Origin: a virus
IMG/VR virus record: IMGVR_UViG_3300045836_000153
Span: 1 to 44,655 of that record
DNA: 44,655 bases
Reading direction: 5' to 3' (one strand)
Part shown: piece after piece, positions 3,239 through 44,655 of the stretch
How positions within the stretch are numbered: the first letter of the stretch is position 1
Layout of the letters: each line of letters begins with the position of its first letter
The notes under the pieces: model-generated
Seen by the model: only the letters and a program-made list of their open reading frames with translations
Database searches by the model: none
Told to the model about the DNA's origin: nothing
Translations under genes and position numbers: made by a program

Positions 3239-4849
3239 CTACTTCGCCGTCGCCGGTACCCGCGTCACGCCGAAGGTCTCAACGATGCCGCGAAAGGCAT
3301 GCTCGCCGTAGTGCGTGACGGGCGAGCCGTGGCCGAGGTACAGCCACACGCGACCGCCCATCGCGCGCCAGCGCGCGCAAAAAGAGTAGTCCTCGCCAAA
3401 GAGGTTTCTGTCTCGCAAAATCAGCTGAAAGAGCGCGACCGTCGGGTGCTTGGTGGGGTCGGGGGGGATCACGTCATCGAATTCGAGATCGGCCCGATAG
3501 TGCGCCGTCATCTGCTCGAGGCAGCGGCGCGAGAGCAGCGCGCACCCGAGTGGAACGCCCGCGACCTCGGTGCATCCGCGCTCGTCCACATGGCGCCCCT
3601 CGGGGCCCTCGAGCAAGCGTAGTTTCCAGCTGTACGCGCGCGCCTCGGGGGGCCTGCCGTCGTCGCGCATGACGGCCTCGAAGTTGATCCCCGACCGTTT
3701 GGGGTACGGGCACGCGATGAAGTCGCGGTCGGCGGCGAGCATGCCGAAGACCGCGGCGGGCTCACACGAGACGTCCGAATCGAGGAACAGCAGGTGCGTC
3801 GCGTCGGTTTCGAGGAACGCGCGAACGAAGCGCGAGCGCACTTTGACGAGGTCCCCGGCCCATCGCCACGTGCCGAGTAGCTCGAAGCCTAGATCGACGT
3901 CGACCGCCTCGGCGAGCATGAGCCGCGAGATCGTCGAGGCGTGCGCGGGGTGGATGCCGCCGAGCGTCGGGGTGCACACGATGATCCGCACGGCCGATTC
4001 GCGCCCCTTGGCGAGCGCCCGCGCCGCGTGAGCGATCCGGCGCATCTCGCGGCGGCCGTCGTCGCGGATGAAGCGGGCGCGCGCCCTCTCGTCGACCCCT
4101 TCGACCCATTGCGCCGCGAGCGCGGGCGTCGAATCGTAGAATCGGCCAAGGTGCGGAACCTGGCTCGGCGTGTCCAGCCACCACTCGACGGCCGCGAGGT
4201 CGGCGGGTTTGTCGAGCACGTCCCATGTCACGACCGGCCGCCGGTGCGGGTGGTGATCGTTGCCGTAGGTCGACGCGATCGACGTGTCATGGTCGATCAC
4301 CGTCGGGATCGGGTGCCAGATCCGCCGGCCCGTCGTGATGCACCAAAGCCCGATGAGGGTGTCTTCGCTCACGGCTTGGACCGCGCCCGACTTGAGCCGC
4401 GTTTCGCGCCACTCGAGGAAGTCGCGCAAGAGGGCAACGGGGATGACGTAGCCGACCCCGATCAAGCCGTCGGCCGTCGTGCACCAGTGATGCCCCTCGG
4501 CGAAGAGCGCTCGCGCCGCGGGGGCGGCGACCTCGAGCCCGATCACTTCGTCGGGGACCGCTTCGACCATGGCGCGAAGAGCGGACCAGAAGTCGGGGGC
4601 GGGGATGACGTCGTCTTGCAGCTGGACGAAGTGCGACGCCCCTTGCCGCGTGCCCCATTTCCACATCGCTTCGGACCACACGTGATTAGGCGCCCGTTCC
4701 GTGAACGCGCGGGCCTCAAAGACGTGCTCGGGAAGAGCGACGTCGTCGTGCACGCCGAGCGCATCGCGAAGACGCTGGAAGGTTTCGACGCGCTCGGGCC
4801 GCCAGGGCGTGTGCGGGATCGCCAGGGCGAAGCTCACGGGGCCGCTCAC
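3239..4849 (-). CDS. two-domain glycosyltransferase
   Basis: A 536-residue protein starting at GTG 4849, which overlaps the upstream methyltransferase stop by 4 nt (GTGA). It appears to hold two GT-A-like halves. The first begins SFALAIPHTPWRPERVETF and has a metal-binding-type LQDDV motif at about residues 77-81, plus a SEDTLIGLWC acid cluster near 161-170. The second begins VRIIVCTPTLGG at about 287 and has FLDSDVS at 355-361, with an acidic FGED segment near the C-terminus. GT-A enzymes transfer a sugar from a nucleotide donor, using the DxD-type acids to hold a metal. No signal peptide or membrane segment is seen, so it should act in the cytoplasm. A likely job is modifying virion protein, phage DNA or host surface glycans, but the acceptor is unknown. 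Confidence 0.8.
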   Translation of the reverse strand: MSGPVSFALAIPHTPWRPERVETFQRLRDALGVHDDVALPEHVFEARAFTERAPNHVWSEAMWKWGTRQGASHFVQLQDDVIPAPDFWSALRAMVEAVPDEVIGLEVAAPAARALFAEGHHWCTTADGLIGVGYVIPVALLRDFLEWRETRLKSGAVQAVSEDTLIGLWCITTGRRIWHPIPTVIDHDTSIASTYGNDHHPHRRPVVTWDVLDKPADLAAVEWWLDTPSQVPHLGRFYDSTPALAAQWVEGVDERARARFIRDDGRREMRRIAHAARALAKGRESAVRIIVCTPTLGGIHPAHASTISRLMLAEAVDVDLGFELLGTWRWAGDLVKVRSRFVRAFLETDATHLLFLDSDVSCEPAAVFGMLAADRDFIACPYPKRSGINFEAVMRDDGRPPEARAYSWKLRLLEGPEGRHVDERGCTEVAGVPLGCALLSRRCLEQMTAHYRADLEFDDVIPPDPTKHPTVALFQLILRDRNLFGEDYSFCARWRAMGGRVWLYLGHGSPVTHYGEHAFRGIVETFGVTRVPATAK

Positions 4850-5445
4850 GTCCGCACCCGCCACGTCGTTCCATCGACCTCGAAGGCCTCGCCGAAGGCC
4901 TCTTTGACCGCGCGCACGACGCCGGGGAAGTCGCCCTCGTGGTAGTCGTCCCCGGCAAGCATCCCCCCTTGCTTCATGTGGGGCCGCCAAAGCGCGATGT
5001 CCTGGGCGACCGCCTCGTAATTGTGGTCCCCGTCGATCATCACGAGATCGCACGAGCTGATGATCTGCGCCGCCTCGGCCGAGCGGCACCGTAGGACGTT
5101 GATCCGCTCTAGCTCGTGCGGCGCGTAACTGCGCATGCAGTGAACGAAGGCCGAGAAAGGGCCGCCGAGGTCGCGGCCAAACTGGGCGAATTCACCGCCC
5201 CACGTCGGCCGCTGCAAGCGCGGGGGGTATTGCGCCGGGAAGTGCCACCAATCATCCCACCATGGATCGACCGCCCAGAGCTTGATCTTTTTGCCCGAGT
5301 CGATCACCCGCCGCGTGAGGTACGCGATCGACTTGCCGAAGGCCACGCCGATCTCGACAAACACGGCGCCGTCCTGCGCCCGCTCTACCGCCTCGTCGTA
5401 TGTCGCGCGGAACGCGAACCACCCCGGGATCTGGTCGTAACTCAT
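4846..5445 (-). CDS. class I SAM-dependent methyltransferase
   Basis: A 199-residue protein from ATG 5445, overlapping both neighbours by 4 nt. Residues 30-39 (VEIGVAFGKS) are the glycine-rich SAM-binding motif I. Residues 134-143 (LVMIDGDHNY) are the acidic motif after strand 4 typical of the Methyltransf_24 group of small-molecule and sugar O-methyltransferases. A Trp-rich stretch at about 62-68 (WWDDWWH) may line the acceptor site. The direct coupling to a glycosyltransferase suggests the two act together, for example by adding a sugar and methylating it. A DNA methyltransferase is unlikely, because no DPPY-type or PC-type motif is present. Confidence 0.8.
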   Translation of the reverse strand: MSYDQIPGWFAFRATYDEAVERAQDGAVFVEIGVAFGKSIAYLTRRVIDSGKKIKLWAVDPWWDDWWHFPAQYPPRLQRPTWGGEFAQFGRDLGGPFSAFVHCMRSYAPHELERINVLRCRSAEAAQIISSCDLVMIDGDHNYEAVAQDIALWRPHMKQGGMLAGDDYHEGDFPGVVRAVKEAFGEAFEVDGTTWRVRT

Positions 5446-6443
5446 GCCTCGTTGCCCCTTTCGTCCTTTGCCGTTCGCTGCTCGATGTCCTCGAAGCCCT
5501 CGAGCGCGCGTAAGCCGCTCTGCCGCTTGGCCTCGATCTCGTCGTCGCTGAGTGTCGGGGTGAGGGCCGGGGCGGTCTTCGCGGGACCGGGCCCTGCCCT
5601 CGTCGCCGCGGGCGGCGGCGGATGCCCGCCGTTCAGCTGCGAGAGGACCGATCCCACCGCGGCCCCGACGACCTCGGGGGCGGCGGCCTGGCGCCGCACG
5701 CGCGCGTGCTCGGCGTCCCTGGCGCGTTGGCGGGCGGCGATGGCCTCGGGTGCCTCGGCGGCCTTGCCGGCGTTTCCTGGGCCATCCTGGCGCGGCGACG
5801 GTACCGCGGCGTCTCGCTGGCGCTCGCGGCGCTGATCGTTGCGGATGAAAGCGAGCCGCGAACGGAAGAGCGCCCGGAAGTCGATCGCCAGCTCGCCGCG
5901 CGCAAGGCACTTGTCGACGAACCGCCGCCATTCGATCTCGACCTCGCGGATCCCGAGTTGCTCGGCGGCGGCGCGCGAGTCGGCGTCCAGGGTGAGCGAC
6001 GGATCGATCAGCCTGGGGACAGGTGCCAGGCTCGGGCGGCTCGAGGGGGGAGCGTCACGCGGCGTTACGGGCGTTACGGGCGTTACGGTCGGCGTTACGC
6101 CTCTCGTCTCTCTCTCTCTTTCTCTAAGATCATGATCCGAGAGAAGATCTCTCTCTTGATCTTCGCGCGAGGCGTCACCCGTAACGTCACTTGTGACGCC
6201 TGGTGACGTAACGGGTGACGTAACGGGTGACGGACCGTAACGCCCACGGTGACGCTCGCGGTAGCGGGCTTGCCGCTTGGCGCCGGGGGTCCGAGGTCGG
6301 GGGGCTTGTGGGCCAAGCTCACCCGCGAGCATGGCCGCCGCCCTCGTCGCCAGCTCTGCGATCTCGCCGTGGCCACCCGCGCGCGCCGCGAGAGCGATTG
6401 CCTCGACGATTCCCAAGGCGCCTTCGACAAGGGGGCGGCTCAC
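5442..6443 (-). CDS. replication initiator/organiser-like protein containing the candidate origin
   Basis: A 333-residue protein starting at GTG 6443, overlapping the upstream stop (GTGA). The N-terminal 40 residues are helical. Around 50-65 is a basic AKRQARYRERHRGRYG segment like those of phage replication proteins. Residues of about 68-128 form a low-complexity linker of VTP/VTS repeats encoded by the iteron array at 6061-6242. After that comes IEWRRFVDKCLARG followed by DFRALFRSRLAFI, which resembles the DnaT-like C-terminal segment seen in phage replication proteins that recruit helicase. The tail is long and Pro/Ala-rich. By analogy with lambda O it would bind its own internal iterons. 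The family match is by pattern only. Confidence 0.6.
   Translation of the reverse strand: MSRPLVEGALGIVEAIALAARAGGHGEIAELATRAAAMLAGELGPQAPRPRTPGAKRQARYRERHRGRYGPSPVTSPVTSPGVTSDVTGDASREDQERDLLSDHDLRERERETRGVTPTVTPVTPVTPRDAPPSSRPSLAPVPRLIDPSLTLDADSRAAAEQLGIREVEIEWRRFVDKCLARGELAIDFRALFRSRLAFIRNDQRRERQRDAAVPSPRQDGPGNAGKAAEAPEAIAARQRARDAEHARVRRQAAAPEVVGAAVGSVLSQLNGGHPPPPAATRAGPGPAKTAPALTPTLSDDEIEAKRQSGLRALEGFEDIEQRTAKDERGNEA
6061..6242. repeat. candidate replication origin: 4+4 inverted iterons around a low-GC tract
   Basis: Four copies of GGCGTTACG stand at 6061, 6070, 6079 and 6091 with 9- to 12-bp periods. Four copies of the reverse complement core CGTAACG stand at 6180, 6207, 6219 and 6236. 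Between them (about 6100-6172) is a CT/GA-rich stretch with clearly lower G+C than its surroundings and four GATC sites. The array lies inside a replication-type gene, the layout of lambda ori within gene O (iterons plus an easily melted region). Binding by the encoded protein is inferred, not shown. Confidence 0.55.
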
Positions 6444-35980: not shown

Positions 35981-36011
35981 TCACCCGGTGAGCAACCTTC
36001 TCACCGGGTGA
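35981..36011. terminator. 12-bp inverted repeat before the terminase gene
   Basis: TCACCCGGTGAG (35981-35992), loop CAACCTT, and CTCACCGGGTGA (36000-36011) form a perfect hairpin. It overlaps the stop codon of the upstream gene and lies 40 bp before the terminase start. On the minus strand it is followed by TTACTTTG, a weak T-rich tail. It may be an attenuator, a protein-binding site, or part of the packaging start site. Confidence 0.45.
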
Positions 36012-42434: not shown

Positions 42435-42489
42435 CACGTGCCCGCTTGAGGCAAGATCGAAGCGACGGGACAGCCAAAATGCCACACGC

Positions 42490-42514
42490 CCCGGGCCGAG
42501 CCGTGAGGCCCGGG
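42490..42514 (-). terminator. hairpin downstream of the lipoprotein gene, probable terminator
   Basis: CCCGGGCC (42490-42497), loop GAGCCGTGA, GGCCCGGG (42507-42514) form an 8-bp stem about 40 bp after the lipoprotein stop. On the minus strand it is followed by a short T-run (CATTTTGG). It probably ends the cargo transcript before the next promoter. Confidence 0.5.
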
Positions 42515-42553
42515 CCGAGGCGTGCGTGTGTCAAACGGATTGGACAGGTAGCG

Positions 42554-43006
42554 CTAGAGGCACTGTCCCGTGCAGGTTCCGACGCCCGGACCCGAGCACG
42601 TCCCCTCGCATCGGCCGGCGCAGAGCACGGCGACCTTGGTGGGGACGCCATCGCAGGTCCCTACACACTGGGCCATACACGAGCCGGCGAATTGCCCGTC
42701 GCATCCGTGGGAACACGTGACCGTGAGGCCGCCGTCGTCGGCGAGCGGATCGGGGGCCGCGTCGGGGCCAGCGTCGGGGGCCGCGTCGGCGAAATTCGCC
42801 TGAGCGTCTACCTGGGTGGTGGGAGCGTCCGGGCCCGCGTCGGCGACGACGGGCATCGGGTCGACGATGGCCGGACCGTCCGAGCCCGAGCAGCCGACGA
42901 GGGCGGCGCACGTGGTGAGAGCGAGCGCCCAGGCGAGGGCGGTCCGCAGCGGTTGCGGCGAGACACGGACGAGGGCGGCGAGGATTCGGCGGGCGAGCTG
43001 GCGCAT
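42554..43006 (-). CDS. Cys-rich lipoprotein (candidate lysogenic-conversion cargo)
   Basis: A 150-residue protein from ATG 43006, with GGAAGGA upstream. The signal peptide has a basic start, a hydrophobic core (LAWALALTTCAALVGC) and an LVGC lipobox with Cys 39. An Asp/Ala/Pro-rich linker of about 55 residues follows. The C-terminus has ten cysteines, mostly as CxxxC repeats (CSHGC, CMAQC, CVGTC, CAGRC, CEGTC, CTGQC). I associate such CxGxC-like arrays with myxobacterial secreted proteins, so the gene may be host-derived. Phage lipoproteins expressed in lysogens often block superinfection, a possible role here. A 21-bp palindrome lies 22 bp upstream of the start. Confidence 0.75.
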   Translation of the reverse strand: MRQLARRILAALVRVSPQPLRTALAWALALTTCAALVGCSGSDGPAIVDPMPVVADAGPDAPTTQVDAQANFADAAPDAGPDAAPDPLADDGGLTVTCSHGCDGQFAGSCMAQCVGTCDGVPTKVAVLCAGRCEGTCSGPGVGTCTGQCL

Positions 43007-43028
43007 GGTGGTGGTCCTTCCGATCTCT

Positions 43029-43049
43029 GGTACGGCAGACTGCCGTACC
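43029..43049. promoter_or_regulatory. 21-bp palindromic operator upstream of the lipoprotein gene
   Basis: GGTACGGCAG, a central A, and CTGCCGTACC form a perfect 10+1+10 palindrome in the gap between the ribbon-helix-helix gene and the lipoprotein gene. An almost identical palindrome is at 43860-43880. The most likely ligand is the ribbon-helix-helix protein encoded in between. Confidence 0.7.
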
Positions 43050-43053
43050 AACT

Positions 43054-43275
43054 TTAGGCCTTGCGCCCGCGCTTCGCTTCGAGCGCCAGAGTCGAGAGCG
43101 GCGCCGTGCGCCCAGGCTTTGGGCCCATCTCGGCCCGGTGCTTCTCGCGGATCATCGTGCGCACAACTTGCGACATGCTCACCCCGGACCGCTCGGCGAG
43201 CTGGGCCAACATGCGCGCCTCGTCATCGTCGATCTTGACGGTGAGCTTGTTCGTCTTCGTCGCCTCGGCGGCCAT
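43054..43275 (-). CDS. ribbon-helix-helix transcription regulator
   Basis: A 73-residue protein that I start at ATG 43275, because GGAAGGA lies 8 nt upstream. It is a clean Arc/CopG-type fold: strand KLTVKIDDDE, helix ARMLAQLAERSG, then SMSQVVRTMIREKHR. The C-terminal 25 residues are basic and loose. Such dimers bind short palindromes; the two 21-bp palindromes flanking this module are the obvious targets, making it an autoregulated switch for the lipoprotein and the zinc-ribbon gene. Confidence 0.8.
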   Translation of the reverse strand: MAAEATKTNKLTVKIDDDEARMLAQLAERSGVSMSQVVRTMIREKHRAEMGPKPGRTAPLSTLALEAKRGRKA

Positions 43276-43340
43276 CGTTCGTCCTTCCCGAGCGCTCGTG
43301 CGCCCGGCGCGACCCGAAGGCCGCACCGGACACCCCAGCG

Positions 43341-43838
43341 CTAGCGCGCCTCGTTCCGCCCCGTGGGGATCTCATCGACCCGCGAGCCGCCGCAACGCCG
43401 CACGCCGTAGCGGGCCTCGGCCCATTCCCTACCGAGGCCCGCGAGCGACCGAGCCCCCGCGATGGCCTCGGCCTCGGTCTCGAAACCGTTTTCCCCGAGG
43501 CAGTCGGCCCGCCAACCCGCCGCGTCGTTTCCGTCGTCGAAGCGTGAGACAACTTCGAACGCGTAGCGGGGACCTTCGACGGCGCTCGCGGGCGGCCCGG
43601 CCAGGACGGCGCGACCGATGGCACCCGCGGCCGCCGCGCTCACGAGGTCCGCGCCGCGCGCCTCGCGCCACGGGAGCGACGTAAGCCGCGTGGTCTTAAC
43701 GAGCGTAGCCCCGCACGTGGCGCACGCGTGCTCGGCGAGCCTGTGCCCGTCGTCGGGCCACCGATAGACGACCTTGCACGTCTTGCACTTGCCGATGCGA
43801 TCCAATCCGTTTCCCGGTCCCGCGTTCGCTTGCTGCAT
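43341..43838 (-). CDS. zinc-ribbon protein of the cargo unit
   Basis: A 165-residue protein from ATG 43838 with GGAGG upstream. Residues 18-42 (CKTC, then CATC) form a CxxC...CxxC zinc ribbon. Residues 60-85 are Ala-rich and may be a helix (ADLVSAAAAGAIGRAVLAG). The end is a mixed domain (YAFEVVSRFDDGND, then FETEAEAIAGARSLAGLG). The function is unknown. It is the first gene of a unit that is bounded upstream by a palindrome and a terminator, so it is likely transcribed on its own. Confidence 0.65.
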   Translation of the reverse strand: MQQANAGPGNGLDRIGKCKTCKVVYRWPDDGHRLAEHACATCGATLVKTTRLTSLPWREARGADLVSAAAAGAIGRAVLAGPPASAVEGPRYAFEVVSRFDDGNDAAGWRADCLGENGFETEAEAIAGARSLAGLGREWAEARYGVRRCGGSRVDEIPTGRNEAR

Positions 43839-43859
43839 GGTGAAGCCTCCATCACTAAT

Positions 43860-43880
43860 GGTACGGCAGAGTGCCGTACC
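43860..43880. promoter_or_regulatory. 21-bp palindromic operator upstream of the zinc-ribbon gene
   Basis: GGTACGGCA, GAG, TGCCGTACC form a 9+3+9 palindrome 21 bp upstream of the start at 43838. It differs from the copy at 43029 by a single central base. Both copies are preceded on the minus strand by GGCCTA, which suggests a shared promoter layout. Confidence 0.7.
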
Positions 43881-43942
43881 ACGCTAGGCCACAAAAGCGC
43901 GCCCGCCGCTCACCCGGGGCAAGCGGGGACGGCGGACGCTGG

Positions 43943-43975
43943 GGCCGCGCGGGGAAGGACGCGAACCGCGCGGCC
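43943..43975 (-). terminator. strong hairpin at the end of the fibre operon
   Basis: GGCCGCGCGG (43943-43952), a 13-base loop, and CCGCGCGGCC (43966-43975) form a 10-bp perfect stem that begins on the base after the stop codon of the last fibre-operon gene. There is no U-run, but its place between two differently regulated units supports a transcription-termination role. Confidence 0.55.
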
Positions 43976-44275
43976 TTACGGCGAGGGTGGCGGAAACGCT
44001 AGGGGTTTGACCAGAAACCGCTCTTCTTTGAGCGTCGTGGTCCCGGTGCCGCTCGTCGTAACCCGCGCGACCCATATCCCATCCTCGGCCGTGGTCGGAA
44101 AGACGCCGTCCGCGTGGTACGTCCCGACGTCGTCGCGCTCGACCGGGGGCAAAATCTCGCCCTGGGTGGGCGGGTGGACGGTCACGACGGGCGGCGAGCC
44201 CGGGTCCGTCAGCACGCCCAAAACCTTGACGAGCGCGGACACGCGAAAGGACTCACCGGGGCGGAACGTTCTCAC
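43976..44275 (-). CDS. small beta-sandwich-like protein, end of fibre operon
   Basis: A 99-residue protein from GTG 44275, overlapping the upstream stop (GTGA). The sequence alternates strand and turn (FRPGESFRVSALVKVLGVLTD, then PVVTVHPPTQGEILP, DVGTYHADGVFPTTAEDGIWVARV cut by a turn, and TLKEERFLVKPL). This is the pattern of an Ig-like or carbohydrate-binding module. Following the repeat-built protein, it could be a fibre tip or chaperone. No named family is recognised. Confidence 0.6.
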   Translation of the reverse strand: MRTFRPGESFRVSALVKVLGVLTDPGSPPVVTVHPPTQGEILPPVERDDVGTYHADGVFPTTAEDGIWVARVTTSGTGTTTLKEERFLVKPLAFPPPSP

Positions 44276-44655
44276 GGCCGTCCCATCGTGAGATCGATCG
44301 TGACGGGCGACGACAAATCGACGTCCACCGTGACGAGCGGGACGATCTCGACCTCGAGCGAGCAAAGCGGCTCGACGGACATCGTCACGACGAAGGGCGC
44401 GGGGGGGACGAAGGCCGAGGCGCCCGGGCGGGCGAGAGCGCGCGCGGCCAGGGTCGCCAAGATCGCGTCGGCCGAGAGGCCCGCCACGCCCGGGCGGACC
44501 AGCGCACGAGCACCCACCCCGGCCACCGTGGCCGAGGCGCTCGCCGCCGCCGCGCCGTCCTGAGCGCCCGCCGTGGCGCCCTGGGCGTTGACCGTCGCGG
44601 ACCCGCCGGTCACGGCTTGGCCGACGCCCGCGCGCGCGTTGGCGACCCCGCCCAG
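44272..44655 (-). CDS. repeat-built tail or virion surface protein, C-terminal part
   Basis: This is the last 124 codons and stop of the protein that begins at 1052; the join uses the 8-bp overlap of the window ends and is in frame. The Ala/Gly-rich repeats continue (ATAGAQDGAAAASASATVAG, then SADAILATLAARALARPG). The end is different: a strand-rich segment with VVTMSVEPLCSLEVEIVPLV and a short closing TIDLTMGRP. The non-repeat end may be the assembly or attachment domain. It overlaps the next gene by 4 nt. Confidence 0.65.
   Translation of the reverse strand: MGGVANARAGVGQAVTGGSATVNAQGATAGAQDGAAAASASATVAGVGARALVRPGVAGLSADAILATLAARALARPGASAFVPPAPFVVTMSVEPLCSLEVEIVPLVTVDVDLSSPVTIDLTMGRP
44648..44655. 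repeat. 8-bp terminal direct repeat (second copy)
   Basis: This copy (CCGCCCAG) is identical to bases 1-8. See the first copy for why it is read as the overlap of a circular molecule. Confidence 0.7.

Follow-up and report, generated by a model that had tools for sequence, protein, structure and literature searches.

The usual view of a moron is that of a single gene equipped with a promoter and a terminator. Dimers of ribbon-helix-helix (RHH) repressors recognise two-fold sites, and these proteins typically act as repressors of the operon that encodes them. Ltp-type lipoprotein morons, which are transcribed in the prophage, keep out other phages (PMC3952083), and the RHH protein MazE6 binds an 18-bp operator that contains a TANNNT -10 motif (PMC9477884).

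Here we analyzed the IMG/VR record IMGVR_UViG_3300045836_000153, the whole of which (44,655 nucleotides) is referred to as the window, and in it a unit of three minus-strand genes encoding a zinc-ribbon (ZR) protein, an RHH regulator and a Cys-rich lipoprotein, located between strong GC-rich hairpins. A literature search of limited scope found no described system of the same composition. Like the window, the temperate phage TP-J34 carries a moron-like surface lipoprotein gene, ltp (PMC3952083). However, no sequence relation between the two lipoproteins was found, and ltp is located in the lysogeny module. To our knowledge, ltp is also without a dedicated RHH regulator. With morons that possess their own promoter and terminator, the unit shares insulation, variable cargo and, in a related phage fragment (L003), antisense placement, whereas it differs from a typical moron in carrying its own regulator, which is constant while the cargo changes. 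Autoregulating RHH repressors, such as CopG, Arc/Mnt, and MazE6 with further RHH antitoxins, resemble it in the RHH fold, in a symmetric site between putative promoter and gene and in a small operon that could be autoregulated. Unlike in these systems, the RHH domain is paired with a zinc ribbon in the window and fused to one in L003, no toxin was recognised, and a second identical site precedes the lipoprotein gene of the window. In NikR, an RHH domain is joined to a metal-binding domain, as in L003, but the presumed metal site here is an N-terminal zinc ribbon, and no homology to the C-terminal domain of NikR was found.

We consider it somewhat better than an even bet (probability of about 0.55) that these three genes represent a moron cassette of the phage, composed of a surface lipoprotein and a dedicated autoregulating RHH regulator whose operators are two palindromes. 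If a moron keeps its dedicated regulator while the surface cargo changes, it would illustrate how phages govern what is displayed on the host.

Organization of the unit and its genome

The window (GC content 69%) represents a myophage-like genome with tail sheath, tape measure and terminase genes, and it also encodes a Mu-type portal and protease, a tyrosine integrase, a RecE-like exonuclease and a sigma-region-4 protein. A relative of the portal was found in a delta-proteobacterial MAG, on one of its contigs. Positions 1-8 and 44648-44655 are identical (CCGCCCAG), and when this overlap is collapsed, one 476-aa minus-strand reading frame with TVNATG-like repeats spans the join; on these grounds the record probably covers a whole genome of about 44,647 bp that is circular or circularly permuted. 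Elsewhere in the window, a glucosyltransferase-like 616-aa protein adjoins a DNA methyltransferase-like protein (3239-5931, minus strand); relatives of both are present in the related record L004, and the two possibly form a DNA modification pair. Moreover, a hairpin with perfect 12-bp arms (35981-36011) lies directly before the terminase gene region.

On the minus strand, two hairpins are followed in turn by GGCCTA, palindrome 1, the ZR gene, the RHH gene, a second GGCCTA, palindrome 2, the lipoprotein gene and a third hairpin (Table 1). All the parts named by the original prediction, namely genes for a zinc-ribbon protein, an RHH regulator and a CxxxC lipoprotein between hairpins, with a palindrome before the first and the last gene, were recovered. 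The 84-nt stretch that contains the downstream hairpin folds at -42.6 kcal/mol (z -3.2), and TTTT tails were observed behind this hairpin and behind the terminator-like one upstream, the latter of which was missed by a consensus terminator scan. Terminator-like hairpins are thus present on both sides of the unit, and no sigma-70 promoter was found before the palindromes by consensus.

Table 1. Features of the three-gene unit and its borders (window positions)
Feature	Position	Strand	Remarks
Second GC hairpin	43943-43975	-	10-bp perfect stem by fold; directly behind the stop of gene 43976-44365
Terminator-like hairpin	43899-43939	-	By fold; tail GCTTTTGTG; between the unit and the upstream phage gene
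GGCCTA before palindrome 1	43885-43890	-	Overlapped by weak -10-like TAGCGT
Palindrome 1, putative operator of the ZR-RHH operon	43859-43881	.	TGGTACGGCA-GAG-TGCCGTACCA; 20 nt before ATG
ZR protein, 165 aa	43341-43838	-	CxxC...CxxC; TTRLTxLP motif
RHH (CopG/Arc type) regulator, 73 aa	43054-43275	-	Pfam RHH_1; own SD (GGAAGGA)
GGCCTA before palindrome 2	43055-43060	-	Overlaps RHH stop codon (GGCC TAA); -10-like TAAAGT
Palindrome 2, putative operator of the lipoprotein gene	43028-43050	.	TGGTACGGCA-GAC-TGCCGTACCA; 22 nt before ATG (21 nt counted from the full 23-bp element)
Cys-rich lipoprotein, 150 aa	42554-43006	-	Signal peptide; lipobox LVGC; Asp/Ala/Pro linker; six CxxxC motifs
Strong terminator-like hairpin	42483-42526	-	By fold; tail GCATTTTGG; downstream of the lipoprotein gene

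Regulator genes and lipoprotein cargo

The RHH protein scored above the curated cut-off of Pfam RHH_1 (E 4.4e-8; 33.2 bits versus 20.5). Its structure model comprises an extended segment and then helices at residues 17-30 and 34-50, which is the strand-helix-helix order of the fold, and the structural matches of this model were mostly RHH proteins (CopG, Arc, ParG and AmrZ among them), with weak E-values. The gene is the middle one of the unit and has no palindrome of its own. For the ZR protein, no significant Pfam, PHROG, NCBIfam or PADLOC family was found, and PADLOC reported no defence family. When the RHH protein and the lipoprotein were used as queries in viral contigs, no relatives were detected. 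ZR matches in L009, L076 and L077 were dismissed as chance matches in unrelated phages, leaving L003 as the only real one. A pattern search of GTDB genome contigs and a search of phage and plasmid records returned no ZR relative; matches in 284 genomes of one phylum were weak (E 0.001 or worse) and were taken as unrelated zinc ribbons.

The lipoprotein has a low-complexity linker and a Cys domain that shares 43-54% identity with large Cys-rich lipoproteins from the presumed host phylum, to which the MAG with the related portal belongs. This suggests that it derives from surface proteins of the host or imitates them, a reading that is weakened by compositional bias. The large proteins (L078, L079, L081 and L083) come from several genomes of the phylum holding a related phage and are lipoprotein-like, with open frames of about 400-560 aa and long runs of CxGxC repeats. 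They resemble the window protein in their lipoprotein-like N-terminus and repeated CxxxC, whereas the phage version is short (150 aa) and has no flanking helical domains. No Pfam or NCBIfam family matched the window lipoprotein, nor does its sequence place it among the Ltp-type exclusion lipoproteins; by analogy with the latter, exclusion of other phages or a surface change is a plausible role.

Twin palindromes and the related fragment L003

The original prediction had described twin 21-bp palindromes before the first and last genes of the unit. Their presence and place were borne out, and their length was revised: both span 23 bp, with perfect 10-bp arms, and differ solely in one base of the 3-base centre. 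The GGCCTA said to lie upstream of each was indeed seen at both sites (5 and 4 nt away, counted to GGTACGG), although part of the match at the lipoprotein gene may be due to chance because it overlaps the RHH stop codon. The starts behind both palindromes carry an SD. With 3 mismatches allowed, the window contains just these two matches (0 expected), and order-1 random sequences of like composition yielded about 2 such hairpins per window, with the same arm occurring twice in 0 of 40. An exact-pattern search for the palindrome in all viral contigs found none.

A total of 60 records with a related portal were found. One of them, L003, is a 10.6 kb fragment whose portal and terminase are 78% and 73% identical to those of the window. 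Among 46 related records, many of them fragments, a ZR relative was present only in the window and L003. The lipoprotein was observed in none of the available sequence stretches of the relatives, many of which are fragments, as would be expected of a moron, an extra gene that related phages lack at the equivalent place. In L003 a single 257-aa protein has the ZR domain at its N-terminus and an RHH-like part further on, where the window has two adjoining genes; identity to the window ZR protein is 48% over the N-terminal domain (~60 residues; E 2e-13). The RHH-like part matched RHH_1 with E 5e-4 when the record was searched alone and with 0.59, below the cut-off, against the whole of Pfam; its low-confidence model has two helices at the right spacing. 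The ZR domain is better conserved than the RHH domain between the two phages. The next gene of L003 (1172-1669, minus strand), whose ATG lies directly behind the regulator stop, encodes a lipoprotein (MRLRSAIALCLLGAAC...) with HELGHxxGxxH and a Pfam matrixin match (E 1e-6), a matrixin-like metalloprotease that is unlike the window cargo. Since L003 has the same regulator-plus-lipoprotein layout with a different lipoprotein, the unit is probably a phage cassette with exchangeable lipoprotein cargo, of which two instances were found, in the window and in L003. In L003 the flanking phage genes on either side, terminase included, are on the opposite strand to the unit, which therefore needs its own promoter.

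L003 also has an element, TGTGGCTACA-CT-TGTGGCCACA, before the start codon at nearly the same distance as palindrome 1. The two were aligned between conserved flanks (GCCTnGCGTG before, TAGTnnTGGAGGnTTC behind) with one gap chosen. Half of the arm bases (10/20) differ, and all of these fall in five pairs that are changed on both sides, four to another Watson-Crick pair and one to G-T, with 0 one-sided changes. All ten arm pairs are thus kept in L003 (9 Watson-Crick, 1 G·T), and the spacer between the arms is 2 bp there and 3 bp in the window. The chance that ten changed columns at random would fill exactly five pairs is 252/184,756 (about 0.0014), and the chance of ten standard pairs given those columns is 0.025; their product is about 3e-5, without a correction for the choice of one gap. 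When the leaders were simply aligned locally, the significance was only moderate (16 of 1000 shuffles were as good), and it is the position and the paired changes that carry the argument. In an alignment-free scan of 72 sequences for hairpins before starts, four other sites at distinct loci were found besides the three discussed here, two of them being the same element in related records. Given that the arm pairs were kept through paired changes, the palindromic element is very probably real and under selection for symmetry, a result compatible with a DNA operator and with an RNA hairpin alike. Its symmetric drift fits a dimer operator evolving together with its regulator. Such paired operator changes between two relatives provide a clean test case for RHH regulator-operator coevolution.

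GCCT occurs at the equivalent place in L003 as well, and GCCTnGCGTG is common to this fragment and the palindrome 1 leader. TAAAGT and TAGCGT lie directly before or overlap the window palindromes, where L003 has TTGCGT. A promoter at the palindromes is only suggested, because the full promoter consensus was not found. A candidate shared promoter, GGTGAGCG-N17/18-CCTW, is present in the window and L003, yet it also occurs elsewhere in other relatives and is not claimed.

Proposed mechanism and competing explanations

As to binding, direction of regulation, role of the zinc ribbon, expression in the lysogen and function of the cargo, we infer the following course. The ZR and RHH proteins, which are one polypeptide in L003, would act together as an autoregulator. 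RHH dimers would bind both arms of the 23-bp palindrome, sited between promoter and ribosome-binding site, so that the RHH protein would repress its own ZR-RHH operon at palindrome 1 and repress or tune the lipoprotein gene at palindrome 2, whose arms match those of palindrome 1; in L003, one operon and one element would do both jobs. The zinc ribbon may respond to metal or to the redox state, or it may make contact with RNA polymerase. The flanking hairpins would insulate the unit from the late operon and thereby make expression from the prophage possible, and the lipoprotein would reach the host envelope, where it would imitate the Cys-rich lipoproteins found in the host phylum and, most probably, change the surface or keep out other phages. 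That the unit is self-contained and independently regulated, as originally proposed, is supported by the terminator-like hairpins, the integrase, the antisense layout in L003 and the symmetric element kept there, while binding of the palindromes by the RHH protein is a well-motivated prediction. It is tentatively possible, though rather doubtful, that we are dealing with a previously undescribed cassette for metal- or redox-responsive host-surface conversion, in which a constant ZR/RHH regulator (split or fused) and a coevolving palindromic operator are combined with exchangeable lipoproteins, the Cys-rich mimic of host lipoproteins in one phage and the matrixin-like protease in the other.

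An operator recognised by one protein is favoured because the window arms are identical while their flanks have diverged and because the RHH gene lies between the palindromes; against it stands the change of spacer from 3 bp to 2 bp, which a rigid operator may not tolerate. In the main competing explanation, the palindromes would act as RNA, with 10-bp hairpins near the mRNA 5' end controlling translation or stability and GGCCU serving as an anti-SD that pairs with the SD (AGG) downstream of the hairpin. The RNAs fold well (z -3.0, -2.6 and -2.0), GGCCU pairs with the SD region in the minimum-energy fold of both window leaders, the one pair of L003 that is imperfect would be a G-U wobble in RNA, and the loops differ in length. 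However, identical arms amid diverged flanks would be needless for hairpins without a trans-acting factor, the closing pair is lost in L003 because of its loop of 2, the best L003 fold lacks the anti-SD pairing, and the unit contains an RHH gene, and we regard control by RNA as rather improbable. Somewhat less probable still are operators for another regulator (ZR by itself, a repressor encoded elsewhere in the phage, or a factor of the host), with the RHH protein acting at other places. The lack of a palindrome at the RHH gene, the first position of the ZR gene and the better conservation of the ZR domain would agree with this, but the phage contains no further copy of the palindrome, and no DNA-binding domain other than RHH, which L003 has in one protein with ZR, was recognised in the unit.

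A type II toxin-antitoxin system, with the RHH protein as antitoxin, ZR as toxin and the lipoprotein as an unrelated neighbour, seems very unlikely. RHH antitoxins do autoregulate via sites at -10 regions (MazE6, PMC9477884), and the best NCBIfam leads were RelB-type antitoxins, all far under the cut-off; yet neither ZR nor the lipoprotein matched a toxin family in Pfam, PADLOC or NCBIfam, ZR and RHH form one protein in L003, and the second palindrome serves the lipoprotein gene. Hardly any weight is given to the view that the three are normal late genes, transcribed together with the tail operon, and that the hairpins have no regulatory role: the unit is on the same strand as nearly all late genes of the window, but terminator-like hairpins lie upstream of it, and in L003 it is antisense and has kept the symmetric element by paired changes.

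In two further relatives, L035 (7130-7153) and L045 (747-770), a palindrome, CACCGGTGTACTCGTGCACCGGTG, was observed at a distance of 20 nt upstream of a short gene (71 aa, helix-turn-helix-like) that lies shortly before terminase and perhaps encodes another autoregulated small regulator.
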